A DNA stretch of 42,956 nt. Source: a virus. Location of the stretch: the IMG/VR virus record IMGVR_UViG_3300044957_000646, positions 1 to 42,956 of that record, one strand, 5' to 3'. The notes under the pieces were generated by a model. It made no database searches. It was not told the DNA's origin and saw only the letters and a program-made list of their open reading frames with translations. Below are positions 7,848 through 42,956 of this stretch, piece by piece (position 1 is the first letter of the stretch; each line of letters starts with the position of its first letter). The position numbers and the translations under genes were made by a program.

Positions 7848-8568
7848 ACAGGCCGGACTCGATCACGAGCCAGCCGATTGATTTTGGGAAGGCCCGCTTT
7901 ACGAGACTATGGACTACTCGTGCGTAGTCTCGGATCTCGTGCTGTGCGTCATCGCTGAGCCTCTGATTCAAGAAGTGGGCGATGGCGTGGAGACTGCCGG
8001 TCCAGCGCCATGTAGTGTAGAGCGCATAGGCTGGCAGGAAGAGTCGAGCCTGCTCAGCACAGATGCCAGCGTCGAGAGCCTCTTCATAGAGGAGTACGCT
8101 GCGAACCACGTGGCTCGTGAGCAGGGCCTCTTGCCTTGCGCTCTCTCGTGTGGGGGCTGGGCCGCCTGAGCCAGCCTTCGACGAGGCAGGAGCGAGCCGC
8201 CACTCAAGCGGCACGTAGAATTGCGGAGGCATGGTCACGTAGCGCCTTGAGGCCTCGTTGCGCGCGTAGAGGCTGTCGCTGCTGTCTTCCTCGCCCGGCT
8301 CACTGTGGGCACTGCCCACGCGATACTTGAACCACTGCCTCGCCACCATGAGCGGGGCCTTGATCTCAAAGGTCATTGCCGCATGGCGAAACGGGCTGGT
8401 GTGACCATGAAGTGCGAGGTACTTGATGAGCTTCTCGTCGCCCTCTGAGAACTCGCGGCTCTCCTTCATATAGGAGGCGCGAGCCGCATTGACGACAGAG
8501 AGGTCCGTGCCGAGGGTATCGACGTGCCGAACGTAGCCATGAGGGGCAATGTGTATTATGGTATCCAT
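7846..8568 (-). CDS. thyX: FAD-dependent thymidylate synthase ThyX, variant signature
   Basis: It would convert dUMP to dTMP using methylene-tetrahydrofolate, FAD and NADPH. The 240-residue length is normal to slightly long. The fold markers NAARASYMKES, KYLALHGHTSPFRH and FEIKAPLMVARQWF are clear. The normally continuous signature (RHR-x7-S followed by NE-S-RY) is changed. Here RQWFKYR (residues 77-83) has Lys and Tyr in place of Arg-His, and about 17 extra acidic and serine-rich residues (about 87-103) separate the VGS segment from NEASRRY (104-110). It lies 7 bases downstream of the sigma gene in the same orientation. It supplies the dTMP that the dNMP kinase gene product would phosphorylate. 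Confidence 0.92.
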   Translation of the reverse strand: MDTIIHIAPHGYVRHVDTLGTDLSVVNAARASYMKESREFSEGDEKLIKYLALHGHTSPFRHAAMTFEIKAPLMVARQWFKYRVGSAHSEPGEEDSSDSLYARNEASRRYVTMPPQFYVPLEWRLAPASSKAGSGGPAPTRESARQEALLTSHVVRSVLLYEEALDAGICAEQARLFLPAYALYTTWRWTGSLHAIAHFLNQRLSDDAQHEIRDYARVVHSLVKRAFPKSIGWLVIESGL

Positions 8569-8574
8569 GGGGCC

Positions 8575-8580
8575 ATTATA
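8575..8580 (-). promoter_or_regulatory. possible -10 element for a leaderless thyX transcript
   Basis: On the minus strand a perfect TATAAT lies exactly six bases before the thyX ATG, so a transcript would start at or next to the A of the start codon. No ribosome site is visible for thyX. The hexamer contains the sigma-factor stop codon (GTA TAA TGG), so it may be coincidental, and no good -35 is present. Confidence 0.3.
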
Positions 8581-9187
8581 CAGAGAGGGAGTGCCTCATC
8601 GCACGCTTGGCCTTCTCTAGCATGCTCTTGATGATCTGCCAGTCAAGGCCAAGGTCTTCGGCGATCTCTTGATAGCTGTAGCCATCTGCACGCATGATGA
8701 GGACTTGGCGAAGGTCTGGGCTTAATGCAGAAAGTGCACGTGTCATTTTTTCAGACATCGGCTCGGGGCCATCAATAAGCGTCGCTGGGTCCATGGCAGC
8801 GGTCATGCTGCCAGACATAGATGGAATGCCGACAGACGACACGTAGTCGTCGATGCTGTCCATATCTTCTGAGAGTGAGCGCTCTTCTAGGCTGTATATT
8901 TTTATGTATCTGTTTCTGCGACCTTCATCTCGAACAAGGTTGCTTGCAATTGTGTAGAGCCATGCATTAAAATAAAAAGTGCCGTCTCTGATTCCGGGCA
9001 AGCTAGCAATTGCTCTTGCCATTGTTTGCTGCACTATCGCTTCAGTAGCACTTCTGTCTCCGGTAAGCTTGAATACGTGCCTCATAAGGCCGGGCCTGAG
9101 GCGCTCGGAAAGGACACCAAACGCAGCCATGTCTCCAAGGCGTATTCTTTCAAGAAGTGCTTTCGTTTCTTCAGAAGAACTAGTCAT
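8576..9187 (-). CDS. ECF-type RNA polymerase sigma factor
   Basis: The 203-residue protein has the two-domain layout of group IV sigma factors. The sigma-2 region (about residues 10-85) has LLERIRLGDMAAFGVL, AIVQQTMARAIASLPG and FNAWLYTIASNLVRDEGRRNR. The sigma-4 region (about 150-200) has LSALSPDLRQVLIMRADGYS and a YQEIAEDLGL helix-turn-helix. The linker (about 100-145) is acidic and Ser/Met-rich. It would redirect host RNA polymerase to phage promoters, most likely for one temporal class. It is the first gene of a two-gene minus-strand operon with thyX. The N-terminus starts at the same CATG palindrome as a divergent plus-strand gene. Confidence 0.85.
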   Translation of the reverse strand: MTSSSEETKALLERIRLGDMAAFGVLSERLRPGLMRHVFKLTGDRSATEAIVQQTMARAIASLPGIRDGTFYFNAWLYTIASNLVRDEGRRNRYIKIYSLEERSLSEDMDSIDDYVSSVGIPSMSGSMTAAMDPATLIDGPEPMSEKMTRALSALSPDLRQVLIMRADGYSYQEIAEDLGLDWQIIKSMLEKAKRAMRHSLSV

Positions 9188-12919: not shown

Positions 12920-12962
12920 AAAAGGAGGAAGGGGTCGCGGGGGCGGCCCCTTACTTATCATG
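12920..12962 (+). promoter_or_regulatory. ribosome site separated from its start by a hairpin
   Basis: AAAGGAGG (12921-12928) is about 31 bases before ATG 12960, too far for normal initiation. Between them GGGGTCGC (12931-12938) pairs with GCGGCCCC (12943-12950) around a GGGG loop, with one G-U pair. Folding the hairpin out leaves about 11 bases between the site and the ATG. It could also act as a weak terminator for the upstream gene, but only TTACTTAT follows. No other in-frame start codon lies in between. Confidence 0.5.
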
Positions 12963-15101
12963 GGTAACTTCTTTGATCGCGCGCTAGAATATGTTGGGCG
13001 TGGGTGGTTCGTGTTTCCCGTCTGCTGGCCGAATGCAAGTGGCTCATGCGGCTGCGGGCGTGGTCATGAGAAGGGCGGCAAAGCCCCATTGGCCGATGGT
13101 GGCTACAAGTCTGCGTCCATGGACCTCGACAGGCTTGAGGAGTGGGACAGGCGCTGGCCTGATGCGAACATTGGCATTGCTCTTGGTGTAAGCGGCCTGT
13201 TCGTCATTGACCTTGATGGAGAGGCTGCGGTTGCCGAGGGACAGAGCCTTGGTCTTGGTGCCACTGCTTGGACAGTCACCGGCAATGGGCAGCACTGGTA
13301 CTACTCAAGACCGGTCGGGTGCCAAGTCACAAGGTCTACAGGTCGTGGCCAGAGTGGCAAGATCGACGTGCTTGCAGACGGCGGACTCATTGTGCCTCCG
13401 AGTGCCCATGCTTCAGGCAAGGCCTACCAGTGGGGTCGCACGCCTGAGGCCTGCATGGGAGACCTGCCTGAGCCACCAGCATGGGCGCTAGAGACCTTGG
13501 CCGCACAGGTCAAGGCTCGTGTGCCGGTGGCTATTGGTGTGGGAGAAGTGTCTGCCATTGCATTGCCTGAGCCTCCTAGTGGGCTAAGCGAGGCGGCCCT
13601 GCGTGTCTGGGAGGGCGAGGGCTACGCCGAAGACAGGAGCCGTGCGCTGAGCAGGCTCAGTATGTATCTTGCGAATGCTGGCATGGAGTCGGGTCAGATT
13701 GCGGGTGTGCTCAAGGGATGGGATGAGGCCAAGGGCATCGAGTCTGGGCGTGGTCCTAAGTATGCGGGTCGTGCCGATGGTGACATGCGCTATGGCACGC
13801 TTGCGACCTCTGCCAAAGAGAAGGTAAAGGCACGTCCACAGGGCGACACAAAGGCCACGATCTATGTGCGCCTGTGTGAGGAGTTTGAGGCGCGCTGGCC
13901 GGGGCACATGCTTGTAGATGAAGCATGGTACGAATACAAAGGCGGCGTATGGGAAGAGATCAAGAAGTACGCGATTGAACTTAAAGTGCAAGAACTCATG
14001 GGTGCACAAATGAGGCCCAACGTGGTCTTTGGTGTGGAGCGCATGCTTCGGGGCAGGCTCAGCAAGCCAGCCGATGTATGGAGCGAGGCACCTGAAGTGA
14101 TCGTGTGCCAAAACGGTGCGGTCGATGTCGAGACGGGCCAGTGCTATGGGCATGATCCGAGCTTTTTGGCAAGGCACAAGACATCGTACTTCTATGATCC
14201 AGAGGCGACAGCCCCTGTGTGGGAGGCATTTATTGCCGACAGGTTCGCACCTGATGTGGCCATGTGGCTTCAGGAATTTGCGGGGCTGTGCCTCACGAAT
14301 GACATGAGCCATGAAGTTGCTGTCTGGCTCTATAGTCCGCCGGGTGCAGGGAAGTCTACGTTTATCACTGGCATGCAACGGGCGCTGGGGCCTGCAAGGT
14401 CGGGTCGGCTCTCATTGGCCGACATGGTTCGGAATCCGAGGTTTAGCCTTGTGAACATTCCGGGCAAGACACTCCTCGTGGCGGCTGAGCAGCCAAGCAC
14501 GTGGGTCGATTGCAGCGATGTCATCAATAGCCTGATCTCTGGCGATACAGTTTCGATTGAGGCCAAGCATCAGAACATCTATGACGCGAGGCCAGTCTGC
14601 AAGATTCTCTGGGGCATGAATGAATTGCCGAGGCTACAGTCTGCGGCAGATGGAATCTTCAGGCGCGTCAAGATCGTAAAGATGGCGGCCATCGAGAAGC
14701 TTGATCCACGCATCAAGGACAAGATTGAGTCCGAAGGCGCAGGCATCTTGCGCTGGGCAATGGAGGGACTGAGGCGGCTCCAGCTCAGTGGCCAAGGCCT
14801 AGGGGCGAGAGTGCCTGCATCTATTGATGCGGCAGGCATGGAGTTCCGGCGCTCCAACGATGTGGTGTCCTCGTTCTTTGATGAGCGGATTGAGCGCGAT
14901 GGTCAGTTGCGGGTGCAGGCCCAAGAGCTGTATGATGCCTACAATGCGTGGTGCCTGCGTAATGGCTACAGGCCAAAGAGTAGAAATACCGTGGGCCAAG
15001 AGTGGACACGCATGGGGCTAGAGGCAAAAGTTTCTGGGGGGCGTACGTATTACATCGGTGCGAAGCTTCGCGACATGGGGCTTCCAAGGGAGGACGAATG
15101 A
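12960..15101 (+). CDS. primase-polymerase / superfamily 3 replicative helicase
   Basis: The 713-residue protein combines an N-terminal primase-polymerase (AEP, about residues 5-190) with a D5-like SF3 helicase (about 330-600). The AEP part shows a Cys/His cluster (CGCGRGHEKGGKAPL), the metal-binding FVIDLDGE (about 81-88), QHWYYSRP and KIDVLADGG. The helicase part shows a Walker A (SPPGAGKST, about 461-469), KTLLVAAEQ, and ILWGMNELPRLQ before the arginine-rich FRRVKIVKM. A winged-helix-like C-terminus (QELYDAYNAWCLRNGYRP) is typical of the P4/D5 class. It would prime and unwind DNA at the replication fork for the phage polymerase. Its TGA overlaps the next ATG (ATGA). Confidence 0.92.
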   Translation: MGNFFDRALEYVGRGWFVFPVCWPNASGSCGCGRGHEKGGKAPLADGGYKSASMDLDRLEEWDRRWPDANIGIALGVSGLFVIDLDGEAAVAEGQSLGLGATAWTVTGNGQHWYYSRPVGCQVTRSTGRGQSGKIDVLADGGLIVPPSAHASGKAYQWGRTPEACMGDLPEPPAWALETLAAQVKARVPVAIGVGEVSAIALPEPPSGLSEAALRVWEGEGYAEDRSRALSRLSMYLANAGMESGQIAGVLKGWDEAKGIESGRGPKYAGRADGDMRYGTLATSAKEKVKARPQGDTKATIYVRLCEEFEARWPGHMLVDEAWYEYKGGVWEEIKKYAIELKVQELMGAQMRPNVVFGVERMLRGRLSKPADVWSEAPEVIVCQNGAVDVETGQCYGHDPSFLARHKTSYFYDPEATAPVWEAFIADRFAPDVAMWLQEFAGLCLTNDMSHEVAVWLYSPPGAGKSTFITGMQRALGPARSGRLSLADMVRNPRFSLVNIPGKTLLVAAEQPSTWVDCSDVINSLISGDTVSIEAKHQNIYDARPVCKILWGMNELPRLQSAADGIFRRVKIVKMAAIEKLDPRIKDKIESEGAGILRWAMEGLRRLQLSGQGLGARVPASIDAAGMEFRRSNDVVSSFFDERIERDGQLRVQAQELYDAYNAWCLRNGYRPKSRNTVGQEWTRMGLEAKVSGGRTYYIGAKLRDMGLPREDE

Positions 15102-15712
15102 TCCGGGCAATGCTTGTGGGGCGTGCAGGCGTAGGCAAGGACACGGTTGCTGCGTTCATGAAGAAGCACGCAGGCGAGCCAGTGGCCTTGGCCTCGCTCG
15201 CTGAGGGCGTGAAGCTTCAGGTCGCTGCCATGCTCGACATGGCAATCGACAAGTATGGCGTGCCACGCGCGAAGCTCTGGCAAGGCAGCGATGAGAGTGT
15301 GATGCGAAACGCAAATGAGTCGAGGAGGCTGCTCAGGCCAATATGGCAGTGGTATGGTACGGACTTCGTGCGGAGCGCTGATCCGGGCTTTTGGATCAGG
15401 GACTTGCATAAGCGCACTGGCCATGTGCAGAACCTCATTGTGACCGATTGCCGCTTCAAGAACGAGGCAGACTATGCGAGGCGCAACGGACTCGTGCTGC
15501 TGAGAGTGGCTGGCCCTGATCGGCGCAATACACCAGAGGGCGACCCGGTCCTGAGGCACGAGAGCGAGCGGCAAGTAGATGACATTGCTTGCCAGTTCGT
15601 GATCGACAACGGGTGCACGCTCACTGAGCTTGAGGATTACGTGGCGTCGGCGGTGCTGCCGTTTGTGCGGCTGCACTCATTCCATGGAAATGAAATTGCT
15701 AATGGCTTTTGA
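15098..15712 (+). CDS. deoxynucleoside monophosphate kinase
   Basis: The 204-residue protein begins MIRAMLVGRAGVGKDTVAAFM, with a P-loop at residues 8-15, the hallmark of phage dNMP kinases (T4 gp1 type). Further markers are WQWYGTDFVRSADPGFWIR (about 87-105) and IVTDCRFKNEADYARRNG (about 115-132), which form the nucleotide-binding and lid regions. It would raise dTMP, dGMP and related monophosphates to diphosphates for DNA synthesis. The start is fixed by ATGA overlap with the primase gene and a GGGAGG site. It overlaps the RNR gene start. Confidence 0.88.
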   Translation: MIRAMLVGRAGVGKDTVAAFMKKHAGEPVALASLAEGVKLQVAAMLDMAIDKYGVPRAKLWQGSDESVMRNANESRRLLRPIWQWYGTDFVRSADPGFWIRDLHKRTGHVQNLIVTDCRFKNEADYARRNGLVLLRVAGPDRRNTPEGDPVLRHESERQVDDIACQFVIDNGCTLTELEDYVASAVLPFVRLHSFHGNEIANGF

Positions 15713-17933: not shown

Positions 17934-17948
17934 GGGAGGCATCTTATG
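17934..17948 (+). promoter_or_regulatory. ribosome site complementary to the terminator arm
   Basis: GGGAGG (17934-17939) is six to seven bases before ATG 17946. GGGAGGC can pair with GCCTCCC 17918-17924 across a 9-base loop. This pairing cannot form at the same time as the terminator hairpin. In read-through RNA that folds the terminator, the site is free. In RNA starting inside the terminator, it is hidden. Confidence 0.45.
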
Positions 17949-18362
17949 GCTAGGCCGCAAAGCTGTCCGGGCGGGCAGCATCAAATCACTTGGTTCACGC
18001 CGAGCCTTGGCATGTGCACGGGGCATCCGTGTGTATGGCGCTACGACGAGGGGCGCGAAGGCTGGGGGAACCTCAAGGGAGACTGGGGGGCGACGGCCGT
18101 CGAACTTGGCAAGGCGTTGCATCTCTTAATGAATGAGCCGAAGCCTGTGGAGGCCGCCCCATTGCCACGGCCTTCATTGCCAATGCCTGATCCAGACAGT
18201 GGGCGAGAGCTGCTTGTGCAATGGCGTGCGAGCATGAAAGTCAGTCAAAGGCAGGCCAGCGTCTTGCTCAAGATAAGTCGTAGCTTCATCGCAGACATTG
18301 AGTGTGGTCGCAAAAAGCTTTCACCAAAGCTCTGGGAAAAAATTAGTAATGCCACACCTTAG
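17946..18362 (+). CDS. XRE-family helix-turn-helix protein
   Basis: The 138-residue protein ends with a Cro/C1-type HTH (about residues 86-135: LLVQWRASMKVSQRQASVLLKISRSFIADIECGRKKLSPKLWEKI). The N-terminal part has three Cys and several Trp (SCPGGQHQITWF, MCTGHPCVWRY), possibly a metal-binding or separate module. It is the first gene after a terminator and begins the run leading to nucleases and terminase, so it may regulate that block. The 3' end overlaps the next gene by 14 bases. Confidence 0.75.
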   Translation: MARPQSCPGGQHQITWFTPSLGMCTGHPCVWRYDEGREGWGNLKGDWGATAVELGKALHLLMNEPKPVEAAPLPRPSLPMPDPDSGRELLVQWRASMKVSQRQASVLLKISRSFIADIECGRKKLSPKLWEKISNATP

Positions 18363-19197: not shown

Positions 19198-19652
19198 TGC
19201 GCACGGCAAGGACTGGACCTGCGGATGACCTAGCAGACGGAATTGTCTACAGGTCCACGTGGGAAAGGAACATTGCTCGGTACTTGCGCTACATGGGTAT
19301 TGAAGCCAAGTATGAGCCGAAGCGCTTCTATTTTCCGGGAAAGGCATGGAGCGAAAGCTACTTGCCTGACTGGCGGCTTATGATTGAGCCGCCACCGGGT
19401 TTCAGTGAAGTCTACATAGAACTCAAAGGGTGGCTCGACAAGAAGAGCATCAGGCGCTTGAAAAACATGCGGGCATACTATGGGAAGCGAGGCATCTTGT
19501 GTATACTTATTGATGAAGACTCTTATGCGAAGATAGAAAATGACTATGCAGAGCGGATCAATGGCTGGGAGGGAAGCTCCATACGAAGGCAGCGGACTTC
19601 AGTCGAACAACTCGGCGAAGGCCCCGTTTCAAGTGAGGGCGAGGCTCAATGA
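19197..19652 (+). CDS. small PD-(D/E)XK endonuclease, resolvase-like
   Basis: The 151-residue protein has VYRSTWERNIARYLRYMG, YLPDW and VYIELKGWLDKKS, that is Glu, then Pro-Asp, then Glu-x-Lys, in the order used by T7 endonuclease I-like and other phage junction-resolving or VSR-like nucleases. It would trim branched DNA before packaging or act in recombination. The ATG overlaps the upstream TAA. The last 92 bases overlap the next gene in another frame. Its C-terminus (EGSSIRRQRTSVEQLGE) is likely disordered. Confidence 0.78.
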   Translation: MRTARTGPADDLADGIVYRSTWERNIARYLRYMGIEAKYEPKRFYFPGKAWSESYLPDWRLMIEPPPGFSEVYIELKGWLDKKSIRRLKNMRAYYGKRGILCILIDEDSYAKIENDYAERINGWEGSSIRRQRTSVEQLGEGPVSSEGEAQ

Positions 19653-20166
19653 GGTCGATGCCCTAAGAGAGCGAGCAAAGGGCAAGAGCTACGAAAAGGT
19701 TGGCGAAGCACTGGGGCTAAGCAAAAATGGCGCGAGGAAAGCAATCTTACGTGGGCTGGAGATCCTCAAGACTGAGCGCGAGGACATTGTTGTCGAGTAT
19801 GCAGGCGTACAGCTTGAGCGCATGAGGCTTGCACTTGAGGCAATCATGCCGCGCGTGGAGGCAGGTGACCTCGACGCAATTGAGACCATGCTCAAGATAG
19901 AGACTCGGACTGCGAGGCTCTTGGCTCTTGATGCACCGGCCAAGTACCCCGAGGATGCAGACGGAAGGCCGATCTTGCCGGGGGTCACAGTGAATATCGC
20001 ACAGAGTCTCGACGGCCTAAGCGAGGCACAGCTTGAGGCACTAAGGCTTATTGGTGTTGGCGGAAGTGTAATTGAGCATGAAGGGTCTTACAGCAGCGCA
20101 GATTCGGGAAGAGGCGGAGAAGGCATTGGCACGGAAGAATCTCCTGCACTTTACGACAAGGACTAA
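19561..20166 (+). CDS. terminase small subunit-like protein
   Basis: The 201-residue protein has an HTH (about residues 31-60: ALRERAKGKSYEKVGEALGLSKNGARKAI) followed by helices ERMRLALEAIMPRVEAGDLDAIETMLKIETRTARLLALDAP. This helix pattern, ending in LLALDAP, is common in phage small terminase subunits that bind the packaging site. It directly precedes the large terminase. The start is uncertain: ATG 19561 overlaps the nuclease by 92 bases, and GTG 19633 is an alternative with a 20-base overlap. The Gly/Ser-rich C-terminus overlaps the terminase ATPase gene by about 90 bases. Confidence 0.75.
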   Translation: MAGREAPYEGSGLQSNNSAKAPFQVRARLNEVDALRERAKGKSYEKVGEALGLSKNGARKAILRGLEILKTEREDIVVEYAGVQLERMRLALEAIMPRVEAGDLDAIETMLKIETRTARLLALDAPAKYPEDADGRPILPGVTVNIAQSLDGLSEAQLEALRLIGVGGSVIEHEGSYSSADSGRGGEGIGTEESPALYDKD

Positions 20167-20926
20167 GCCCGGCTACCAAGTAGGACGCATCCACTGGCTC
20201 ATTGCACAGACACTGATGCTGGTGGAGGCCGGTGTGCTGGACCGTGTGGCAATTCAGATGCCACCACGGCATGGCAAAAGCGAGCTGGCCTCAGTGCGGT
20301 TTCCTGCTTGGTATTTGGGTCGGCACCCTGATAAGCAGTTCGTTGCGGCGAGCCATACACAGGACCTTGCCGATGAGTTCTCGGGGAAAGCAAGAGATGT
20401 CGTCAAGAATGAAAGGTGGCCGTTTCAAAGTGTGAGGCTCGCCGGGAATGCGTGGGCAGTTCGGAGATGGAAAGTCGAGACTAGGCAGCAGCATCGGTGG
20501 GCTGACCTTGGTGGTGTGTATGTTCCTGTTGGCGTTGGTGGTGGCCTCACTGGCAAGGGTGCTGACATACTAAGTATCGACGACCCGGTCAAGGACTGGG
20601 TGCAGGCCGACAGCGAACTCATTCGCGAGAGCCACTGGTACTGGTATCAGTCTGTTGCAAGCACGCGGCTCATGCCGGGGGCGGCTTGCATCATGACACT
20701 TACACGGTGGCACCAAGATGACATTCTTGGGCGTGCACTCAAGGTTGCGTCTGAAATTGCAAATGCGGATCAGTGGTTTGAGATCAAGATGCCAGCCCTT
20801 AGTGAAACAAATTTTGTTCATGCAGATATAAACGTGCCAGACAAGTTAGCAAATGAAGCAGGAATTGATGCAGGCCTTAAGGAGCCTGAGGTACTATTCA
20901 AGAAGCTATGGAGCCTATGCAAATGA
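20078..20926 (+). CDS. terminase large subunit, ATPase half
   Basis: This 282-residue ORF carries the packaging-motor ATPase: an adenine-binding-type helix (about 20-35), Walker A PPRHGKSE (about 62-69), SHTQDLADEFSGKARD, and Walker B ILSIDDP (about 164-170). A coupling segment CIMTLTRWHQDDILGRAL comes after it. Large terminases usually continue into an RNase H-like nuclease. Here the frame ends at TGA 20924-20926, and the nuclease lies in the -1 frame. I chose ATG 20078; TTG 20072, five bases after GGAAG, is also possible. The last 40 residues diverge from a usual linker. Confidence 0.88.
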   Translation: MKGLTAAQIREEAEKALARKNLLHFTTRTKPGYQVGRIHWLIAQTLMLVEAGVLDRVAIQMPPRHGKSELASVRFPAWYLGRHPDKQFVAASHTQDLADEFSGKARDVVKNERWPFQSVRLAGNAWAVRRWKVETRQQHRWADLGGVYVPVGVGGGLTGKGADILSIDDPVKDWVQADSELIRESHWYWYQSVASTRLMPGAACIMTLTRWHQDDILGRALKVASEIANADQWFEIKMPALSETNFVHADINVPDKLANEAGIDAGLKEPEVLFKKLWSLCK

Positions 20927-21744
20927 AGCTGTCAGTGGTGCTGCACGACAAGGGGCCTGCACTTGATCCGGTGAGATGGCCAGAAGAAGATATGGAGAGG
21001 CGCAAGGCCTCTAGCGTGGGGCGAGTGTGGCGCAGCCTTTATCAGCAGGATCCTACTGACATTGATGGCAACCTGTTCAAGGAAGTCTGGTGGCAAATCT
21101 ATGAGACGCTGCCGAGCTTCGTGCGGGTGTGCCTTTATGTTGACAGTGCATACAAGGCTGGAGTGAGCAGCGACTATAGCGTGGGCGCACTATGGGGCAA
21201 GTGCTACAATGGCAATGCGTGGCTCATTGATGTGAGGCGCGCGAGGCTTGAGTTTCCTGAGCTGGTCGAGTTTGTCATCAGCATGCGAGAAAAGCATATG
21301 AAATATAAGCCACCAGTAATTGTTGAGGACAGGTCATCGGGTCAGGCCCTCGTGCCGATCTTGAGGAAGCGCGGGGTACTTGCCATGCCGTGGAAGCACA
21401 ACATCAAGGGCCTTAGGTCAAGCGCATCGAAGATTGCACGGATGGAGGCGATCACCCCGCTTGTGGAGGCCGGGCGTGCATGGATTCCGGCGCGAGCACC
21501 ATGGCGAGACGACTGGCTGGCGGAGCATCGGGCCGTGCCGACCGGGGCGCATGACGACATGGTCGATACGACCGTCATGGCCCTCGATCACTTGCTCGGC
21601 ACTGTGGCCCTTGAGGCCGGGCCGAGCCTCCCATTTCGCGACAAAGATGTGCCTGTGCTTGCCCCTATGGCCGCCGTCAAGAGGAGGCGCGACAGCGAAG
21701 AGGACGAGGAGCTAGAACGATGGCGGCAGGCTGGGCTGCTCTAG
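20923..21744 (+). CDS. terminase large subunit, nuclease half
   Basis: This 273-residue ORF begins at ATG 20923, which overlaps the upstream TGA (ATGA) and has GGAG nine bases upstream. ATG 20908 and 20917 in the same frame are alternatives. It starts with the segment that normally links ATPase and nuclease (PVRWPEEDMERRK, then WRSLYQQDP), then shows the three acidic clusters of the RNase H-like nuclease: YVDSAYKAGVSSDYS, IVEDRSSGQALV and AHDDMVDTTVMAL. It would cut concatemeric DNA at headful or site-specific ends. Both halves are intact, so this may be a real two-subunit terminase or the result of a frame change. Confidence 0.85.
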   Translation: MKLSVVLHDKGPALDPVRWPEEDMERRKASSVGRVWRSLYQQDPTDIDGNLFKEVWWQIYETLPSFVRVCLYVDSAYKAGVSSDYSVGALWGKCYNGNAWLIDVRRARLEFPELVEFVISMREKHMKYKPPVIVEDRSSGQALVPILRKRGVLAMPWKHNIKGLRSSASKIARMEAITPLVEAGRAWIPARAPWRDDWLAEHRAVPTGAHDDMVDTTVMALDHLLGTVALEAGPSLPFRDKDVPVLAPMAAVKRRRDSEEDEELERWRQAGLL

Positions 21745-30063: not shown

Positions 30064-30099
30064 TGTGTGTACGCATGGCGCATGGGAGGACACAAGAGC

Positions 30100-30696
30100 A
30101 TGGCACTGAGCATCTTCGCGCGGGTCGGGCGGGCGATCAAGCGTGGGCTTGGGCTGCACATGATCGACGCGCAAGGTGTGGTCACCTTGCAGGAACTGCA
30201 CAAGGTGATCGACGAGATCAAGGCACTCAAGTACGAGGTGCAGGTCCTCGGTGACGACGCGCGCATGGGGCGCATTCATGCTGCCGAGCATCAGGACAAC
30301 CTGTTCAACCAAGTGAATAAACTGCACAAGGTGATCGACGAGATCAAGGCACTCAAGTACGAGGTGCAGGTCCTCGGTGACGACGCGCGCATGGGGCGCA
30401 TTCATGCTGCCGAGCATCAGGACAACCTGTTCAACCAAGTGAATAATGCGTACGCCTCGATCCTCGACCTTCAGGTGCAGATTTCCGACATCAAGTACAA
30501 GATCGGTGAAGTTGTCGATACTAGGACGCAAGTCTACAAGGTGGAAGACAGCATCAGCACTGTCATATTCGTGCTCGAAGAACTCAAGTCAGACATCGCA
30601 GGCGTGCGCGATGTGGTAGACGGGCTTGAGACTGACCCTGTTGGGAAGGTGGCGGAGGCTCTGGCCGAGGCCGCACGTAACTTGGAGGTGCGATAA
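30100..30696 (+). CDS. coiled-coil protein with an internal 42-residue duplication
   Basis: The 198-residue protein starts at ATG 30100 after GGGAGG. The N-terminal 35 residues form an amphipathic, basic helix (MALSIFARVGRAIKRGLGLH). Most of the rest is helical, with heptad-like spacing. A 42-residue block (LHKVIDEIKALKYEVQVLG... ending DNLFNQVN) is present twice in tandem, and six heptads equal 42 residues, so the register is kept. It may be a fibre-like or scaffold-type protein. It is not similar to the tail fibre genes. No family is recognised. Confidence 0.65.
   Translation: MALSIFARVGRAIKRGLGLHMIDAQGVVTLQELHKVIDEIKALKYEVQVLGDDARMGRIHAAEHQDNLFNQVNKLHKVIDEIKALKYEVQVLGDDARMGRIHAAEHQDNLFNQVNNAYASILDLQVQISDIKYKIGEVVDTRTQVYKVEDSISTVIFVLEELKSDIAGVRDVVDGLETDPVGKVAEALAEAARNLEVR
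30194..30446 (+). repeat. perfect 126-bp tandem duplication inside a gene
   Basis: Bases 30194-30319 and 30320-30445 are identical, copy to copy, with 30446 matching the first base of the unit. The unit is 126 bp, a multiple of 3 and of 21, so both the reading frame and the coiled-coil heptad are retained. Lack of any divergence implies a very recent event or an assembly artefact. Confidence 0.95.
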
Positions 30697-32963: not shown

Positions 32964-33161
32964 ATGTCTACAAAGCGAAGCGCATGGAGCAACACGAACA
33001 GCGAGTTCCTTACCGTGCCTCAAGTGGGGCGGCTTCTCGGCATCCCGTATAACACGGTGCTCAAGATGGTCAAGACGGGCGTGATCCCCGGCGCGTTTCG
33101 CATCGGGCGACGCACCCTCTACAAGCGGGCCTCGGTCGAGGCATGGCGCACGAGTGCCTAA
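32964..33161 (+). CDS. excisionase/MerR-like HTH DNA-binding protein
   Basis: The 65-residue protein is almost all one winged helix-turn-helix of the excisionase type: FLTVPQVGRLLGIPYNTVLKMV, then a wing GAFRIGRRTLYKRASVEAW. It is likely a DNA-bending or regulatory protein. No integrase is nearby, so its job is probably transcriptional control rather than excision. It has its own promoter and is followed by a terminator, as expected for a regulator. Confidence 0.8.
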   Translation: MSTKRSAWSNTNSEFLTVPQVGRLLGIPYNTVLKMVKTGVIPGAFRIGRRTLYKRASVEAWRTSA

Positions 33162-37990: not shown

Positions 37991-38065
37991 TGGAGCCGAG
38001 AGTGGGAGTCGAACCCACGACTGGCGGTTTACAGGACCGCTGCTCTGCCACTGAGCTATCTCGGC
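37991..38065 (-). tRNA. tRNA-Thr (anticodon UGU)
   Basis: On the minus strand a full cloverleaf forms: acceptor GCCGAGA/TCTCGGC, D arm GCTC/GAGC, anticodon stem GCGGT/ACCGC, T arm GTGGG/CCCAC, discriminator U and encoded CCA. The anticodon loop reads CCTGTAA, so the anticodon is UGU with C at position 33 in place of the nearly universal U. It is separated by one base from tRNA-Lys. It lies antisense to the plus-strand genes, in the gap after dcd. Confidence 0.88.
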
Positions 38066-38066
38066 G

Positions 38067-38138
38067 TGGCCCCCGTGGGACTCGAACCCACAGCCCAAGG
38101 ATTAAAAGTCCCTTGCTCTACCGTTGAGCTAGGGGGCC
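38067..38138 (-). tRNA. tRNA-Lys (anticodon UUU)
   Basis: On the minus strand acceptor GGCCCCC/GGGGGCC, D arm GCTC/GAGC, anticodon stem AGGGA/TCCTT with loop CTTTTAA, and T arm GTGGG/CCCAC are present, with discriminator A. CCA is not encoded (CG follows). It is transcribed just before tRNA-Thr. Confidence 0.9.
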
Positions 38139-38756: not shown

Positions 38757-38832
38757 TGGTGCCTCGGGCGCGGGTCGAACGCGCGACCGTCCGCTTAGAA
38801 GGCGGATGCTCTGTCCACTGAGCTACCGAGAC
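38757..38832 (-). tRNA. tRNA-Arg (anticodon UCU)
   Basis: Minus-strand cloverleaf: acceptor GTCTCGG/CCGAGGC (one G-U), D arm GCTC/GAGC, anticodon stem TCCGC/GCGGA with loop CTTCTAA, T arm GCGCG/CGCGC, discriminator A and encoded CCA. It reads AGA and, by wobble, AGG. AGG is very frequent throughout this window. Confidence 0.92.
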
Positions 38833-38839
38833 GCGCCCA

Positions 38840-38915
38840 TGGTAGGCCCGGCGGGAATTGAACCCGCGGCCACTGACTTATAAGGTCAGTGCTCTCACCA
38901 CTGAGCTACGGGCCG
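38840..38915 (-). tRNA. tRNA-Ile (anticodon UAU), C1-U72 mismatch
   Basis: Minus-strand cloverleaf: acceptor CGGCCCG against CGGGCCT, D arm GCTC/GAGC, anticodon stem CTGAC/GTCAG with loop CTTATAA, T arm GCGGG/CCCGC, discriminator A and encoded CCA. Position 1 is C and position 72 is U, an unpaired end that elongator tRNAs normally avoid. It is 7 bases from tRNA-Arg, so the pair is likely one transcript. The anticodon reads AUA. Confidence 0.85.
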
Positions 38916-38940: not shown

Positions 38941-39357
38941 ATGATCGCGATGACGATTGGCCTGCGCGTGTTCATGGTCGTGCGGGCATTCGGGCCGGGC
39001 CACTATGAGCTGAGCATGGCGACAATGGCAGCATTGGTGGCCGACATCAGTCCGAAGCTGGCGGCCGAGGAGGTTGACCCCGTCGAGATTCTTGAGGCAC
39101 TCGCATGGCTCGACAGTACTGATGAGGCCATGGCCAAGGAGACTGGGTCGGCACGGACGTTTGTGTTTCTCAGCATGAAGCAGATCGGTGATGGCACCTC
39201 TGTTTCTTGGCATGAAGCAGATCGCAAGTGGCATGGGTCTGACTACTCTAGGGTCGTGGCAGTCTTCGAGCGAGAGAACCCAAGCCTAGGAAGCCGCTTC
39301 ATGGCGGATCTCTTTGGGTCTGAGTACCCTACAGTCGTTGGCGAGACGGTGTTGTAG
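38941..39357 (+). CDS. unrecognised protein (138 aa) before the repeat block
   Basis: ATG with AAGGAG upstream. Hydrophobic, helical N-terminus (MIAMTIGLRVFMVVRAF) and several mixed segments (MAALVADISPKLAAEEVDP, EILEALAWLDS, SARTFVFLSMKQIG). The TAG stop lies within the first TGTAGGCTACT repeat. No family is recognised; its position next to the repeat cluster makes a regulatory or replication link possible. Confidence 0.55.
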   Translation: MIAMTIGLRVFMVVRAFGPGHYELSMATMAALVADISPKLAAEEVDPVEILEALAWLDSTDEAMAKETGSARTFVFLSMKQIGDGTSVSWHEADRKWHGSDYSRVVAVFERENPSLGSRFMADLFGSEYPTVVGETVL

Positions 39358-39468
39358 GCTACTCGGCCCAGATTGTAGGCTACTTGGAGGCTACTTCTGC
39401 ATGAATTGCATGGCACATAGAAGCAAGCCTGATCTGGAACTGTAGGGTAGTAGCCTACTTTTAGAAGT

Positions 39469-39477
39469 GCTGGTATA
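39469..39477 (+). promoter_or_regulatory. possible extended -10 promoter in the repeat block
   Basis: TGGTATATT (39469-39477) is an extended -10-like element; no good -35 is present. A near copy of the 11-base repeat (39449-39459) lies 10-20 bases upstream, where a bound protein could block or help RNA polymerase. This is a weak call. Confidence 0.3.
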
Positions 39478-39501
39478 TTCGTGTGGGTGAAAAGAGTTTG
39501 A

Positions 39502-39522
39502 CCCCCGTATATAGTACGGGGG
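39502..39522 (+). other. strong inverted repeat in the non-coding block
   Basis: CCCCCGTA (39502-39509) and TACGGGGG (39515-39522) are exact complements with a 5-base TATAG loop. TTTGAC stands directly before it. No T-run follows, so it is not a terminator. It may be an operator, a structural element of an origin, or an RNA hairpin. Confidence 0.55.
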
Positions 39523-39603
39523 GCGAAGAGGATTGGGCCTCGTGCAATGGGTCGCCTAAAATAGGAAAGTTGCCGAGTAGCCTACAAGCCAAGGAGAACT
39601 GCA

Positions 39604-39924
39604 TTGAACCGTACCGACATGCTTGACAAGGACAGCGAGGCAGGGGAGCACCTGCTTGAGACTCTTGCTCGGATCGAGGCGGGGCTACTTGAAAGTAACC
39701 GTGTGTACACCAAGCTCCTGTCGCGAGTGGCAGTCATCAAGGTGACAGTCGATGACATTGAGGCGAAAGTCAAGAAGCACGACGCCGAGCTTGTAGAGAC
39801 AGGCAAGCTGTGCGACGAGCTGATCGGCGGCCTGCGCGATGTCATGGAGGCGACCCTCAACATGCAGGGCAAGAGTCTCAGTGACGCCGAGGGACTTGCG
39901 CCCGACGAAGAAGGCATGCTATAG
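39604..39924 (+). CDS. coiled-coil protein (106 aa), TTG start
   Basis: TTG 39604 is seven bases after AAGGAGA; ATG 39619 is an alternative. The product is a long charged helix with heptads (EHLLETLARIEAGLLESNRVYTKLL, VDDIEAKVKKHDAELVETG) and an acidic C-terminus (AEGLAPDEEGML). It is the last gene before the terminator that precedes the giant gene. No family is recognised. Confidence 0.6.
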   Translation: MNRTDMLDKDSEAGEHLLETLARIEAGLLESNRVYTKLLSRVAVIKVTVDDIEAKVKKHDAELVETGKLCDELIGGLRDVMEATLNMQGKSLSDAEGLAPDEEGML

Positions 39925-39945
39925 TCTGCTGTCGCGGACTGGCGA

Positions 39946-39970: not shown

Positions 39971-40009
39971 GGATCGGCAAAGACCCAACAATTGAATAGC
40001 GCGCTCTTG

Positions 40010-40045
40010 GGCCAGCCATTTCCCCCGATGGCTGGTCTTTTTTTT
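40010..40045 (+). terminator. strong rho-independent terminator
   Basis: GGCCAGCCAT (40010-40019) pairs with ATGGCTGGTC (40028-40037, one G-U), loop TTCCCCCG, followed by eight T residues (40038-40045). It closes the early/accessory operon or acts as an attenuator ahead of the giant gene at 40090. Confidence 0.92.
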
Positions 40046-40047
40046 AT

Positions 40048-40092
40048 GTCCTCCGTTTCTACAAGTAAGGCTTATTGCGGAGGACACCAATG
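40048..40092 (+). promoter_or_regulatory. hairpin burying the ribosome site of the giant gene
   Basis: GTCCTCCG (40048-40055) is exactly complementary to CGGAGGAC (40078-40085), and the loop is 22 bases. The right arm contains GGAGG (40079-40083), the ribosome site six bases before ATG 40090. Pairing would block initiation until melted by a protein, by RNA processing, or by transcription starting downstream of the left arm. Confidence 0.6.
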
Positions 40093-42956
40093 ACGTTTAC
40101 ATCACGAGGCTTCGGTATCAGAACCAATGCTGACGCACAGAAGGCGCGGCTTGATGAGCTTGCAAGGAGAGTAAACCTAGGGAAGCCTGAAGAGCAGGCC
40201 CCTACTGGCCCCACGGCCGCGGACTACAATGCAGTCGCAGGCCTTGTGCCTGAGGCATTCCCTGCTGGCTTCGAGCCACTGCCCGAGCGTCCAGTCGATC
40301 CAGAGCAGGCAGCCATTGATGCCGCAAGAGCCAGAGCATCGGCGTACCTGAGCGCGCCAGACAACGCTGCGATGCAGACCACAGACATTGGTGGCACGCA
40401 AGTCAGGTCATTGAGGCCGGGCATGACATGGAACTTCACGCCCGAAGAGGCAGCCTCGCGTATCGACACGTTCGAGTCCGCAATCAATGCAGGCGTGAAC
40501 CTCACACCTGCCGAGCGCGAGGAGTACATGGCGGCACAGGCCACCCCCGGCGTGAACATTCGCAAGGGTGGCTGGGACACGGCAGGCAGGAACCTCTTTG
40601 TCGGCGCAACGGGAGGCGTGGCTGCCCCCATTGGCGGTGCCATGCGCTTCATTGGCGAGAATGCTGGCGTGCCGGGCATGGCAGAGAGCGGGGCAGCCAT
40701 CGAGGAAAGCGCGGCTGGGCAACAGGCCAGATTCAATCCGCCGACAAAGGAGCAGCTCGACAAGGCGACGGGCGTGCCTGAGCCGAAGCCAGAGTGGGGG
40801 GCGAACAGCCTGTTCCAAGTCAACACATGGACGGACGGGCGCATGCTTGACCCGAAGTGGTGGGAGGCCCTCGGCGCACAGAACTGGGTCAAGACGACAG
40901 GCATGCAGGGGCTTGGCTCATTTGCTGGAACTGCGCTTGTTACCGCGCCCCTTTCCATGGGGGCGAGCGCACTGCTTGAAGCGCCCATGCTTGTCGTTGG
41001 TGCGCGCTTTGGACTGAAGCCCGGTGTCATTCGAGGCAGCCTTGAGATTGCCGACAGGCTTGGCCTTGGTGGGGGCGATGTCGTTGACGCACTCACAGAA
41101 GCAGCAACTGCATATTCAGATGCAAGACGTGAAGGCAAGTCTATAGACGAAGCAAACAGAATTGCCGGTCAAGTCAGTGCCATGAATGTGGCGACGAATG
41201 TTGCGCTTGGCTCTGCCGGTGAAGTTGCAGCCAAGCTCAAGGGTGCAGGCATGGCGGCACGGAAGCTCAACAATTTGCTGAGACGTAGCCCCGTGCCTGT
41301 TGAGACGCAGCTCGCGACCGCAGAAAGAATGGCATCAGAAGGACTCATTCAAAAAGTCATCCTTGATAAGGTCAAGTCTGCAATTATTGCAGGTGCAAGA
41401 GAGGGACTTCAAGAGGCGCAGCAAGGCAACATTCAGGACACGGCAAAGGACGACACGCCATGGGATGTCATGCGTGCGTACACGAGCGGCAAGTACACGG
41501 ACGACATGCTCGCTGGCGCATTGCTTGGTGGGGGCAGCCGCTTTGTCGGATCAATGCGGACGATGGCAAGGCCAAGCGGTGCGCTCGGCATCATGTCGCA
41601 GCCACAGAAGGCACAGATTGAATCTGTGATTGGCGACAATCCTGTATTCAAAAACCTCCCTGAAGAAAGCGCATCAAGACTTGAGGATCTGAAGAGTCGA
41701 GTATCTTCAGGACAAGTGTCTTTTGATGATGGAGTACGAGAGTTAGTTGACATTGCATTTGAATTGCCATCTGAACATTTTGATGCAATCAGACCAAAAC
41801 TTGACATGCTTGAGGAGAGCGCTGCCGAAAGTGCGACTCAAGAAACAGGAGGTGGTGGGGGCGCACCTCCGACACCGCCACCTACAAAGACGGGCGGAAC
41901 ACCAGTAGATCCAGAAGAGGAGCGCATCAGAAGGCTCATGGATCTAGATGATCCACTCAGGCCGGGGTCAAAACTTATAGATAGATATAGAAGTCTTGCA
42001 AGTCAGGCTCGTCAAGGTGTGCTTACAGCAGATCAACTAAGAAATGATTTGTTTGATCGTATTCAAGATGATAGCAATCTTGATGATGAAGGAGTTAGCG
42101 CTCTTACAGATGCATTGCAAAGTCTTGATATATCTGCTCCACAAAGTGAAGCAGTAGCAAATGCAGAAAGAATGTACGCTGCAAGAGATAGGGAAACAGA
42201 GGAAGTAATCACACCGGAACCTCCAACAAAAAGCTCGTCAAGCATAGCACCTAGTGCAGCTCAAACACCTAGTACTGCTAGGTTTACGAAGCCAGAACAG
42301 ACTATTCCTACAGAGCAAGCGGATGCAGAAGTTCGCAAGGCAGTAGACGAATTCCTTGCACAGAATCCTGACATTAAAATATCTAGAGATATTATATACG
42401 ATCAAAAGTATAAAGATTTTGTGCAAGAATTAACTAATAAATATAATTATACAAGTATATATGCACCTCCTGAGTATAATGAGTTTGCTCCATGGAAAGT
42501 TCCACAAGACTCTGCACGTATGGCTATATATAGTCAGCTAATTCAAGGAAGGCGCGCACAGCAAGCAGGATCACAGCAAGCGGCTACACGTATTATAACT
42601 ACTCCGCAAGCTAGACAGAGGCTTGCAAATCTCGGAATGACAAATGAACAACTTGTACGCTATGTTCCTACTCCAAGCGGAAATAATGGATCATATACTC
42701 TAGCCGACGTAACAAAAGCAGAGAGTCTAATGAATGCGGAGGGTTCCGTCGCGGGAGAGCCTGTTGCCGAACAGCCTGTTGCCAAGCCACCGGCCGCCGA
42801 GCAGCTCGTCACCGAGCCACCGGCCGCCGAGCCACCGGCCGCCGAGCAGCCCGTCACCGAGCAGCCCGTCGCCGAGCGACCAGCCGCCCAACGAGTCGTT
42901 AGGTTTGAAAATCCTTTTATTCAGAAAGCTTTTGAAGCTGCAAAAGAAAATGGACT
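40090..42956 (+). CDS. giant virion or ejection-type protein (partial, at least 955 aa)
   Basis: The frame is open from ATG 40090 to the window's end without a stop, so the gene continues to the right. Visible segments: a Gly-rich membrane-like patch (FVGATGGVAAPIGGAMRFIG, about residues 172-191), a helical GLQEAQQGNIQD...DDMLAGALLGGGSRFVG region (about 446-490) typical of large phage polyvalent or internal virion proteins, a Pro/Thr linker (about 593-605), and a long Gln/Ala-rich, AT-biased part. Near residue 890 there is a Pro-Ala-Glu-Gln repeat encoded by an abruptly GC-rich stretch. It may be an ejected inner-core protein. No enzymatic domain is seen in this part. The ORF is missed by simple gene callers that need a stop. 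Confidence 0.75.
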   Translation, partial: MTFTSRGFGIRTNADAQKARLDELARRVNLGKPEEQAPTGPTAADYNAVAGLVPEAFPAGFEPLPERPVDPEQAAIDAARARASAYLSAPDNAAMQTTDIGGTQVRSLRPGMTWNFTPEEAASRIDTFESAINAGVNLTPAEREEYMAAQATPGVNIRKGGWDTAGRNLFVGATGGVAAPIGGAMRFIGENAGVPGMAESGAAIEESAAGQQARFNPPTKEQLDKATGVPEPKPEWGANSLFQVNTWTDGRMLDPKWWEALGAQNWVKTTGMQGLGSFAGTALVTAPLSMGASALLEAPMLVVGARFGLKPGVIRGSLEIADRLGLGGGDVVDALTEAATAYSDARREGKSIDEANRIAGQVSAMNVATNVALGSAGEVAAKLKGAGMAARKLNNLLRRSPVPVETQLATAERMASEGLIQKVILDKVKSAIIAGAREGLQEAQQGNIQDTAKDDTPWDVMRAYTSGKYTDDMLAGALLGGGSRFVGSMRTMARPSGALGIMSQPQKAQIESVIGDNPVFKNLPEESASRLEDLKSRVSSGQVSFDDGVRELVDIAFELPSEHFDAIRPKLDMLEESAAESATQETGGGGGAPPTPPPTKTGGTPVDPEEERIRRLMDLDDPLRPGSKLIDRYRSLASQARQGVLTADQLRNDLFDRIQDDSNLDDEGVSALTDALQSLDISAPQSEAVANAERMYAARDRETEEVITPEPPTKSSSSIAPSAAQTPSTARFTKPEQTIPTEQADAEVRKAVDEFLAQNPDIKISRDIIYDQKYKDFVQELTNKYNYTSIYAPPEYNEFAPWKVPQDSARMAIYSQLIQGRRAQQAGSQQAATRIITTPQARQRLANLGMTNEQLVRYVPTPSGNNGSYTLADVTKAESLMNAEGSVAGEPVAEQPVAKPPAAEQLVTEPPAAEPPAAEQPVTEQPVAERPAAQRVVRFENPFIQKAFEAAKENG
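42757..42894 (+). repeat. GC-rich Pro/Ala/Glu/Gln coding repeat
   Basis: Units of 4 to 8 codons such as PPAAEQPV, PVTEQPV and PAAEPPAAE repeat about eight times (protein residues about 890-935). The DNA is GC-rich with GCCGCCGAG and CCGGCCGCC, while the surrounding 1 kb is AT-rich. It is in frame and probably encodes a flexible spacer prone to length change. Confidence 0.85.

Follow-up and report, generated by a model that had tools for sequence, protein, structure and literature searches.

The question raised by the locus described here is which process is served by a cluster of short, nearly identical sites that occupies a single intergenic gap in the genome of an uncultured bacterial virus. 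The window, that is the whole stretch of DNA analysed, is an IMG/VR record of 42,956 nucleotides, and the gap in question (39358-39603; 246 bases) is flanked by an ORF without a family match (38941-39357) and by a gene on the + strand encoding a 106-amino-acid coiled-coil protein (39604-39924). The stretch is non-coding, as the earlier note had stated, inasmuch as it contains no + strand ORF of at least 60 amino acids. Upstream of the array lie helicase, deaminase and tRNA genes, while the order downstream is the 106-amino-acid gene, a terminator, a gene for a 2991-amino-acid virion protein, and the major head protein gene; the array is thus positioned at the boundary between the replication/metabolism and the virion gene blocks. 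The four tRNA genes (37991-38138 and 38757-38915) are oriented opposite to their neighbouring genes and were all that Rfam reported in the window at its gathering threshold.

Three exact copies of the motif TGTAGGCTACT anchor the array. The first (S1; 39353-39363, + strand) overlaps the TAG stop codon of the preceding ORF, the second (S2; 39374-39384, + strand) follows as a direct copy 21 bp further on, and the third (S6; 39576-39586, - strand) is inverted and is followed 4 nt later by the sequence AAGGAG (39591-39596) and the TTG start codon at 39604. A copy with one mismatch (S3, TGGAGGCTACT; 39385-39395, + strand) is located 11 bp after S2. These positions bear out the earlier description of two direct, one inverted and one near copy, the first overlapping a stop codon and the last lying just before a ribosome site. 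The additional degenerate copy of that description is present as sequence material at 39441-39459; it consists, however, of two overlapping sites rather than one, a weak site with two mismatches (S4, TGTAGGGTAGT; 39441-39451, + strand) and a one-mismatch site with the full palindromic core GTAGCCTAC (S5, AGTAGCCTACT; 39449-39459, - strand). Spacings within the array are 21, 22 and 11 bp, and S1 and S6 together form a perfect 16-bp inverted repeat (39352-39367 and 39572-39587) that encloses 204 bases. One outlier with a single mismatch (S0; 39323-39333, - strand) is found inside the upstream ORF; it may be due in part to an internal duplication in this ORF and may be incidental. Every core of the type GTAGSCTAC includes, on one strand, the octamer GTAGGCTA, all four window copies of which are confined to the gap.

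When up to one mismatch is allowed, the window contains three exact and three one-mismatch sites, and all six fall within 264 bases (39323-39586), so that the motif search through the remainder of the window, which the earlier note had proposed as a check on chance scatter, yielded none elsewhere. Simulated Markov windows (n = 300) contained on average 0.36 such sites with a maximum of three per window, and in none of the 300 did two of them occur within 275 bases of each other. A tolerance of two mismatches raises the count to 13 sites versus 6.2 expected, a number reached in three of 100 shuffles; this looser definition is noisy, the stricter one is not. The only circumstance that speaks for an artefact of chance or base composition is this roughly twofold excess over the whole window; given the simulated windows and the conservation of the array in a distant relative (see below), we consider such an explanation refuted, its residual probability being practically nil.

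A second record of the same virus, G001 (59,545 bases), covers the window, most of which it matches at 98.9-100% identity. It is probably complete, since the 129 bases at either end are 99.2% identical to each other; IMG/VR classifies it as linear. G001 holds the same six sites with up to one mismatch and no others, and the stretch with the array has the same orientation in both records that hold it, with two mismatches in 4166 bases. Three further records of this virus contain no such site; among them, G004, which was compared in full, does not extend over the array region. The two long records diverge most at about 25.8-30.3 kb. Identity to G001 falls to 90-98.7% in the segment 25753-30320, where gaps and unaligned pieces also occur, and rises to 99.0-99.5% on either side of it.

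To extend the comparison, viral contigs were scanned for two GTAGSCTAC cores separated by 2-32 bases, which returned 65 loci. One of these (L057) encodes an SNF2 helicase (50% identity over the part held by the locus, 44% over 697 amino acids) and a dCTP deaminase (51%), both related to genes located upstream of the window array. Its record, G005 (46,514 bases; incomplete), is colinear with the window for those genes that have a match. Identities of matching proteins range from about 30% to 77%, with the portal (77%), a tail protein (70%), the Prim-Pol protein (63%) and the Pol III alpha subunit (60%) at the upper end, and the beginning of the large virion protein (30%) as the lowest match; some window genes, such as that for ribonucleotide reductase, are matchless in G005. 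All four G005 cores lie at 8333-8502, inside a 234-base gap that extends from the deaminase gene to a gene for a 70-amino-acid protein, and all five copies of the octamer are confined to this gap as well. Read along the coding strand, its left part holds five direct GTAGGC copies, three of them with the full core, followed by a hairpin; the right part holds one full core and two half sites, all inverted and placed ahead of the start codon. The window shares this layout, with S1 to S3 in direct orientation, a hairpin, and the inverted S6 before the start codon, S5 also being inverted. The bases flanking the sites are largely alike within each phage and different between the two (TTGTAGGCTACTYGG versus GGGTAGGCTACTTT), a pattern that would be expected if the sites co-evolve with their binder. 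A tRNA-Arg(TCT) gene is present downstream of the G005 array in the coding sense.

The unique location of the sites and the conservation of position, core and geometry in G005 make it well supported, as far as sequence comparison reaches, that the gap is a selected array of putative sites for one DNA-binding protein. In this respect the reading of the earlier note stands; the sequence is compatible with either of its two functions, operator or replication origin. A core of palindromic form points to a dimer or to binding in pairs, and a half site, GTAGGC, may suffice for the candidate binder, since several of the G005 copies retain this half alone.

How widely does such an array occur? Among the 65 loci, 11 have at least three cores within 400 bases (L007, which belongs to the same record as L019, was not counted). 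Two of them are the records already described (L019 is G001, L057 is G005). In tblastn against window ORFs, the remaining nine were without a match apart from a weak exonuclease match of L072 (26% identity), and were not counted as relatives. They include TAGGCTAC-rich arrays around a short palindrome (L055:4859-5006, L062:4510-4623 and L077:12958-13043), again without window matches, which precede a small gene and a gene for a DnaB-like helicase (family checked for L062, judged by eye for the others); L053 is a coding repeat, and L083 carries triple sites beside what by eye appears to be the end of a recombinase gene. A scan of bacterial genomes for three cores produced 15 loci, 13 of which have no open frame across the array ±150 bases and look by eye like tandem repeats. 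Portal alignment led to six viral loci and to no relative in bacterial genomes. Nine loci of the window's virus group were checked, all of which lack the array region; they are devoid of the core except for L103, a near-identical 8.5-kb fragment with a lone GTAGSCTAC core in its portal gene (L103:962-970) and no array. This single copy argues against strict uniqueness of the core across the virus group. The motif search in related genomes proposed earlier has recovered the same six sites, and these only, in G001, and the four G005 cores in the equivalent gap.

A literature text search for the motif found no description among the matches listed, as judged by their titles, and the gap DNA has no detected similarity to phages. 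A comparison with 50,697 phage records yielded no match for the tail protein, the portal or the first 955 amino acids of the 2991-amino-acid virion protein, and one match (26% identity) for the major capsid protein; by these comparisons, the virus lineage of the window has no close named relative in the collection that was searched. The array is real and specific, its general kind being familiar: it is a conserved control or initiation array, present once per genome in the two phages for which the region is known. It provides a small, exact and testable cis-element for this lineage, and the maintenance of the site between genomes whose proteins share about 30-77% identity narrows the candidate binders to a few conserved proteins.

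In both phages, the cores tend towards a common face of the helix. For the centres of S1, S2, S3, S5 and S6 the resultant is 0.986 (p = 0.0017 with periods of 10.3-10.7 scanned; 0.014 at 10.5), and for the four G005 cores it is 0.981 (p = 0.016 with a scanned period; 0.022 at 10.5). Inclusion of weak sites, S4 among them, reduces the phasing (p = 0.025-0.05 in the window, 0.02-0.03 in G005), and when the window set is reduced to its four full cores, the p values are 0.016 and 0.07. These tests were picked once the spacing was known, and alternative choices of sites and periods give p values between 0.0013 and 0.07.

Between the two arms of the window array lies the hairpin CCCCCGTA-TATAG-TACGGGGG (39502-39522, + strand), a 21-base element found exactly where the earlier note had placed it. 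Folded as DNA, its surroundings (39490-39535) reach -10.8 kcal/mol, a stability equalled by none of 200 shuffles; the G005 hairpin (-8.0 kcal/mol as DNA; one of 200 shuffles) is unrelated in sequence. A transcript of 39486-39640, folded as RNA, shows no unusual stability (z = -1.28). Window and G005 also have one element in common that is not a site (CGCCTWAARTAGGAAA; CGCCTAAAATAGGAAA at 39553-39568, + strand), with 14 of 16 bases identical and four of 200 shuffles scoring as well. The extended -10-like sequence TGGTATATT, also announced by the earlier note, is present at 39471-39479 on the + strand. If it marks a promoter, the centre of S5 would be located at about -32 relative to the expected start.

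We give about an even chance to the proposal that the gap is an operator array at a middle-to-late switch. According to this proposal, the 246 bases would be a conserved cis-control region in which the left arm consists of direct and the right arm of inverted sites with the core GTAG-S-CTAC, and one dimer-forming or cooperative protein, most likely phage-encoded, would occupy sites mostly on one helix face, such that the bound arms converge on a putative promoter for the coiled-coil gene 39604-39924. With S5 placed where a -35 element would be, binding could either block the promoter until the switch, through a loop that joins the left arm to S6, or substitute for -35 contacts and thereby activate it. 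We counted in favour of this proposal the overlap of sites with a promoter-like element, their position ahead of a ribosome site, the recurrence of a small gene, a -10-like element and a terminator downstream, the gene-block boundary, and the presence of genes for three conserved candidate regulators; moreover, the sites are concentrated at one regulatory gap (six of six in the window and G001, four of four cores in G005). The architecture kept in G005, the helical phasing, the hairpin between the arms and the site flanks that largely agree within each phage were counted on this side as well. Against it count that a consensus promoter scan predicted no sigma-70 promoter at 39471 and a number of hits at chance level in the window, with no above-chance support in G005 either, and that the window contains 11 such near-matches, TGGTATATT among them. 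The distance from the presumed -10 element to the sites differs in G005, and the post hoc choices in the phasing tests weigh on the same side.

The three candidate regulators are an HTH_17 protein of the excisionase/MerR-like type (32964-33161, + strand; syntenic in G005, 43% identity), an XRE-type HTH protein (17946-18362, + strand; 36%) and an ECF-like sigma factor (8576-9187, - strand; 38%). The two HTH proteins named earlier as possible binders both exist, are conserved in G005 and remain candidates. There is no GTAGSCTAC core at any regulator's own gene and hence no sign of autoregulation, which is a further point against an operator. An excisionase role of the HTH_17 protein is unlikely, since neither the tyrosine integrase (PF00589) nor the serine resolvase (PF00239) family was detected in the three records searched (G000, G001, G004).

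This absence also bears on the idea that the array is a recombination element, whether as a promoter that can be inverted, as the arm sites of an attP, or as what is left of a small transposon with its terminal inverted repeats. Such a nature would be in keeping with the perfect inverted repeat formed by S1 and S6 and with the excisionase-like HTH protein; given the missing recombinase families, the single orientation of the stretch in both records that hold it, and the multi-site G005 array with its different arm flanks, we regard it as very improbable.

The array has familiar counterparts among phage control regions. The OL/OR operators of phage lambda are operator arrays controlling a lytic switch. 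Like the window, they combine direct and inverted copies of a partly palindromic site at a single locus over a promoter-like element; they differ in that the searched records lack an integrase family and the candidate regulator genes are not adjacent to the array. Stoperators of the Cluster A type are scattered through the genome, whereas all sites of the window, G001 and G005 lie in one gap. In the account of T4 middle promoters given in PMC2988021, a MotA box centred at -30 is combined with a -10 element, often an extended one, at nearly 60 promoters. The position of S5 beside an extended -10-like element, at the place of a -35 element, is similar to this arrangement as described there; many sites at one locus, rather than one box at many promoters, is not.

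If the operator proposal is correct, the array marks the late switch. The 106-amino-acid protein and its 70-amino-acid G005 counterpart are 33% identical in alignment and share a C-terminal ELIxxLRxVMxA motif. The former is predicted to form one long helix (residues 3-87; pLDDT 89 with a two-sequence alignment), and no relative was found in the family libraries used, among solved structures, or among viral structures (best E value 4.5). A Q-like or AlpA fold is unsupported, and the single helix, which is no known late-activator fold, counts against an operator. Further downstream, a second extended -10-like element (TGCTATAGT; 39917-39925, + strand), with TGGTATAAT at the equivalent place in G005, lies ahead of an intrinsic terminator (40009-40038, + strand; TTTCCCCC in the loop region, then a T run) that also has a G005 counterpart; a second transcription unit may thus separate the array from the virion genes. 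The distance from the -10-like element to the terminator stem is 83 bases in the window and 48 in G005. TTTCCCCC occurs once in the window, and in G005 once in the coding sense and once on the other strand. Given the gene-block boundary and this promoter-like element and terminator before the virion genes, the array-controlled unit would most likely time the change to late expression. The putative unit at 39917 is comparable to the late antitermination units of Q and AlpA, as presented in PMC9371919, in its apparent succession of promoter-like element, putative short leader, intrinsic terminator and late genes in both phages; neither a binding element nor a -10-like pause is evident in it, and the modelled single helix of the 106-amino-acid protein is unlike the Q/AlpA fold. 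Beyond the terminator, a potential stem at 40047-40087 (GTCCTCCG...CGGAGGAC) would enclose the ribosome site of the 2991-amino-acid virion gene (z = -3.4; none of 200 shuffles in the window).

A replication origin is the most serious rival to the operator, although we hold it to be rather unlikely. The sites would then be iterons bound by the C-terminal winged-helix-like domain of the Prim-Pol/SF3 helicase, and the hairpin would be a melting or priming structure. The phage does encode a protein with Prim-Pol, D5/SF3 and C-terminal Pox_D5-type domains (12960-15101, + strand), a candidate origin binder. With 70% identity over 146 amino acids, its C-terminal part is better conserved than the other DNA-binding candidates, namely the TerS-like, HTH_17, ECF-like sigma and XRE proteins. 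This conservation fits an unchanged core site, though the whole enzyme is already 63% identical. A single array per genome with direct and inverted copies at 21/22/11-bp spacings, phased repeats (with p values that depend on choices) and a stable hairpin in mid-array in both phages are likewise what an origin might look like. Precedent is provided by phage P4, for which PMC4234260 describes a winged helix of the alpha protein that binds origin repeats; the P4 alpha iteron origin is similar in its short direct and inverted repeats in one non-coding stretch and in a replication protein with an SF3-type helicase and a C-terminal DNA-binding domain. It differs in that the P4 alpha primase is, in that account, of the Toprim type, and in that the window array is without an AT-rich tract and lies at a gene-block boundary.

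Several observations weigh against the origin. GC-skew mapping, one of the checks proposed by the earlier note, revealed no sign change at the array: the skew of G001 is positive except in two of sixty 1-kb windows (48001 and 53001), both away from the array. The detrended skew of G001 does have its maximum near the array, at 41187, but base composition itself shifts near this gene-block boundary, and the incomplete record G005 is without an extremum at its array. An AT-rich unwinding tract is lacking, since the array stretches are 48-50% AT and no 30-base window (15-base steps) exceeds 63% AT in either phage. Furthermore, the Prim-Pol gene lies about 24 kb from the array, and the sites coincide in part with a promoter-like element and are followed by a ribosome site. 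For the Prim-Pol replicons pRN1 and BIP-1, whose proteins have the same layout of Prim-Pol, SF3 and C-terminal winged helix, PMC4234260 proposes as the origin a large stem-loop directly 3' of the gene for the replication protein; pRN1 lacks iterons according to the same source. The window's Prim-Pol gene has no such stem-loop: the 146 bases 3' of it (15095-15240) are coding, within the next ORF, and fold like shuffles (z = 0.04).

Operator and origin functions can coexist in one stretch. It is conceivable, if doubtful, that the gap is at once a Prim-Pol/SF3 origin and a late-programme promoter, which would couple replication initiation with the late switch. The same degree of doubt applies to the corresponding architecture, in which palindromic, phased iterons in two arms converging around a hairpin would be read by the C-terminal domain of the primase-helicase. 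An origin at this place would reveal how a Prim-Pol/SF3 phage replicase locates its start, and the coupled arrangement, if true, would depart from the stem-loop type of origin that has been proposed for such proteins.

cosB-type sites are known to hold repeats, and a packaging site, that is a pac- or cos-like array bound by the TerS-like protein, has also to be weighed. This protein is conserved in G005 (48% identity); the terminase genes (19540-21744), however, are about 18-20 kb away, and the near-identical 129-base end overlap of G001 is far from the array, so that we judge a packaging function to be improbable. The large terminase of the window is encoded by two overlapping frames (20072-20926 and 20908-21744) corresponding by family match to its N- and C-terminal halves, a split repeated in the G005 matches (25859-25005 and 25032-24184), which represents either a two-gene terminase or a frameshift. 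Elsewhere in the window, the coiled-coil gene 30067-30696 contains a 127-base tandem duplication (30194-30446) that is visible as a repeated peptide and in overlapping matches of the end of G004.
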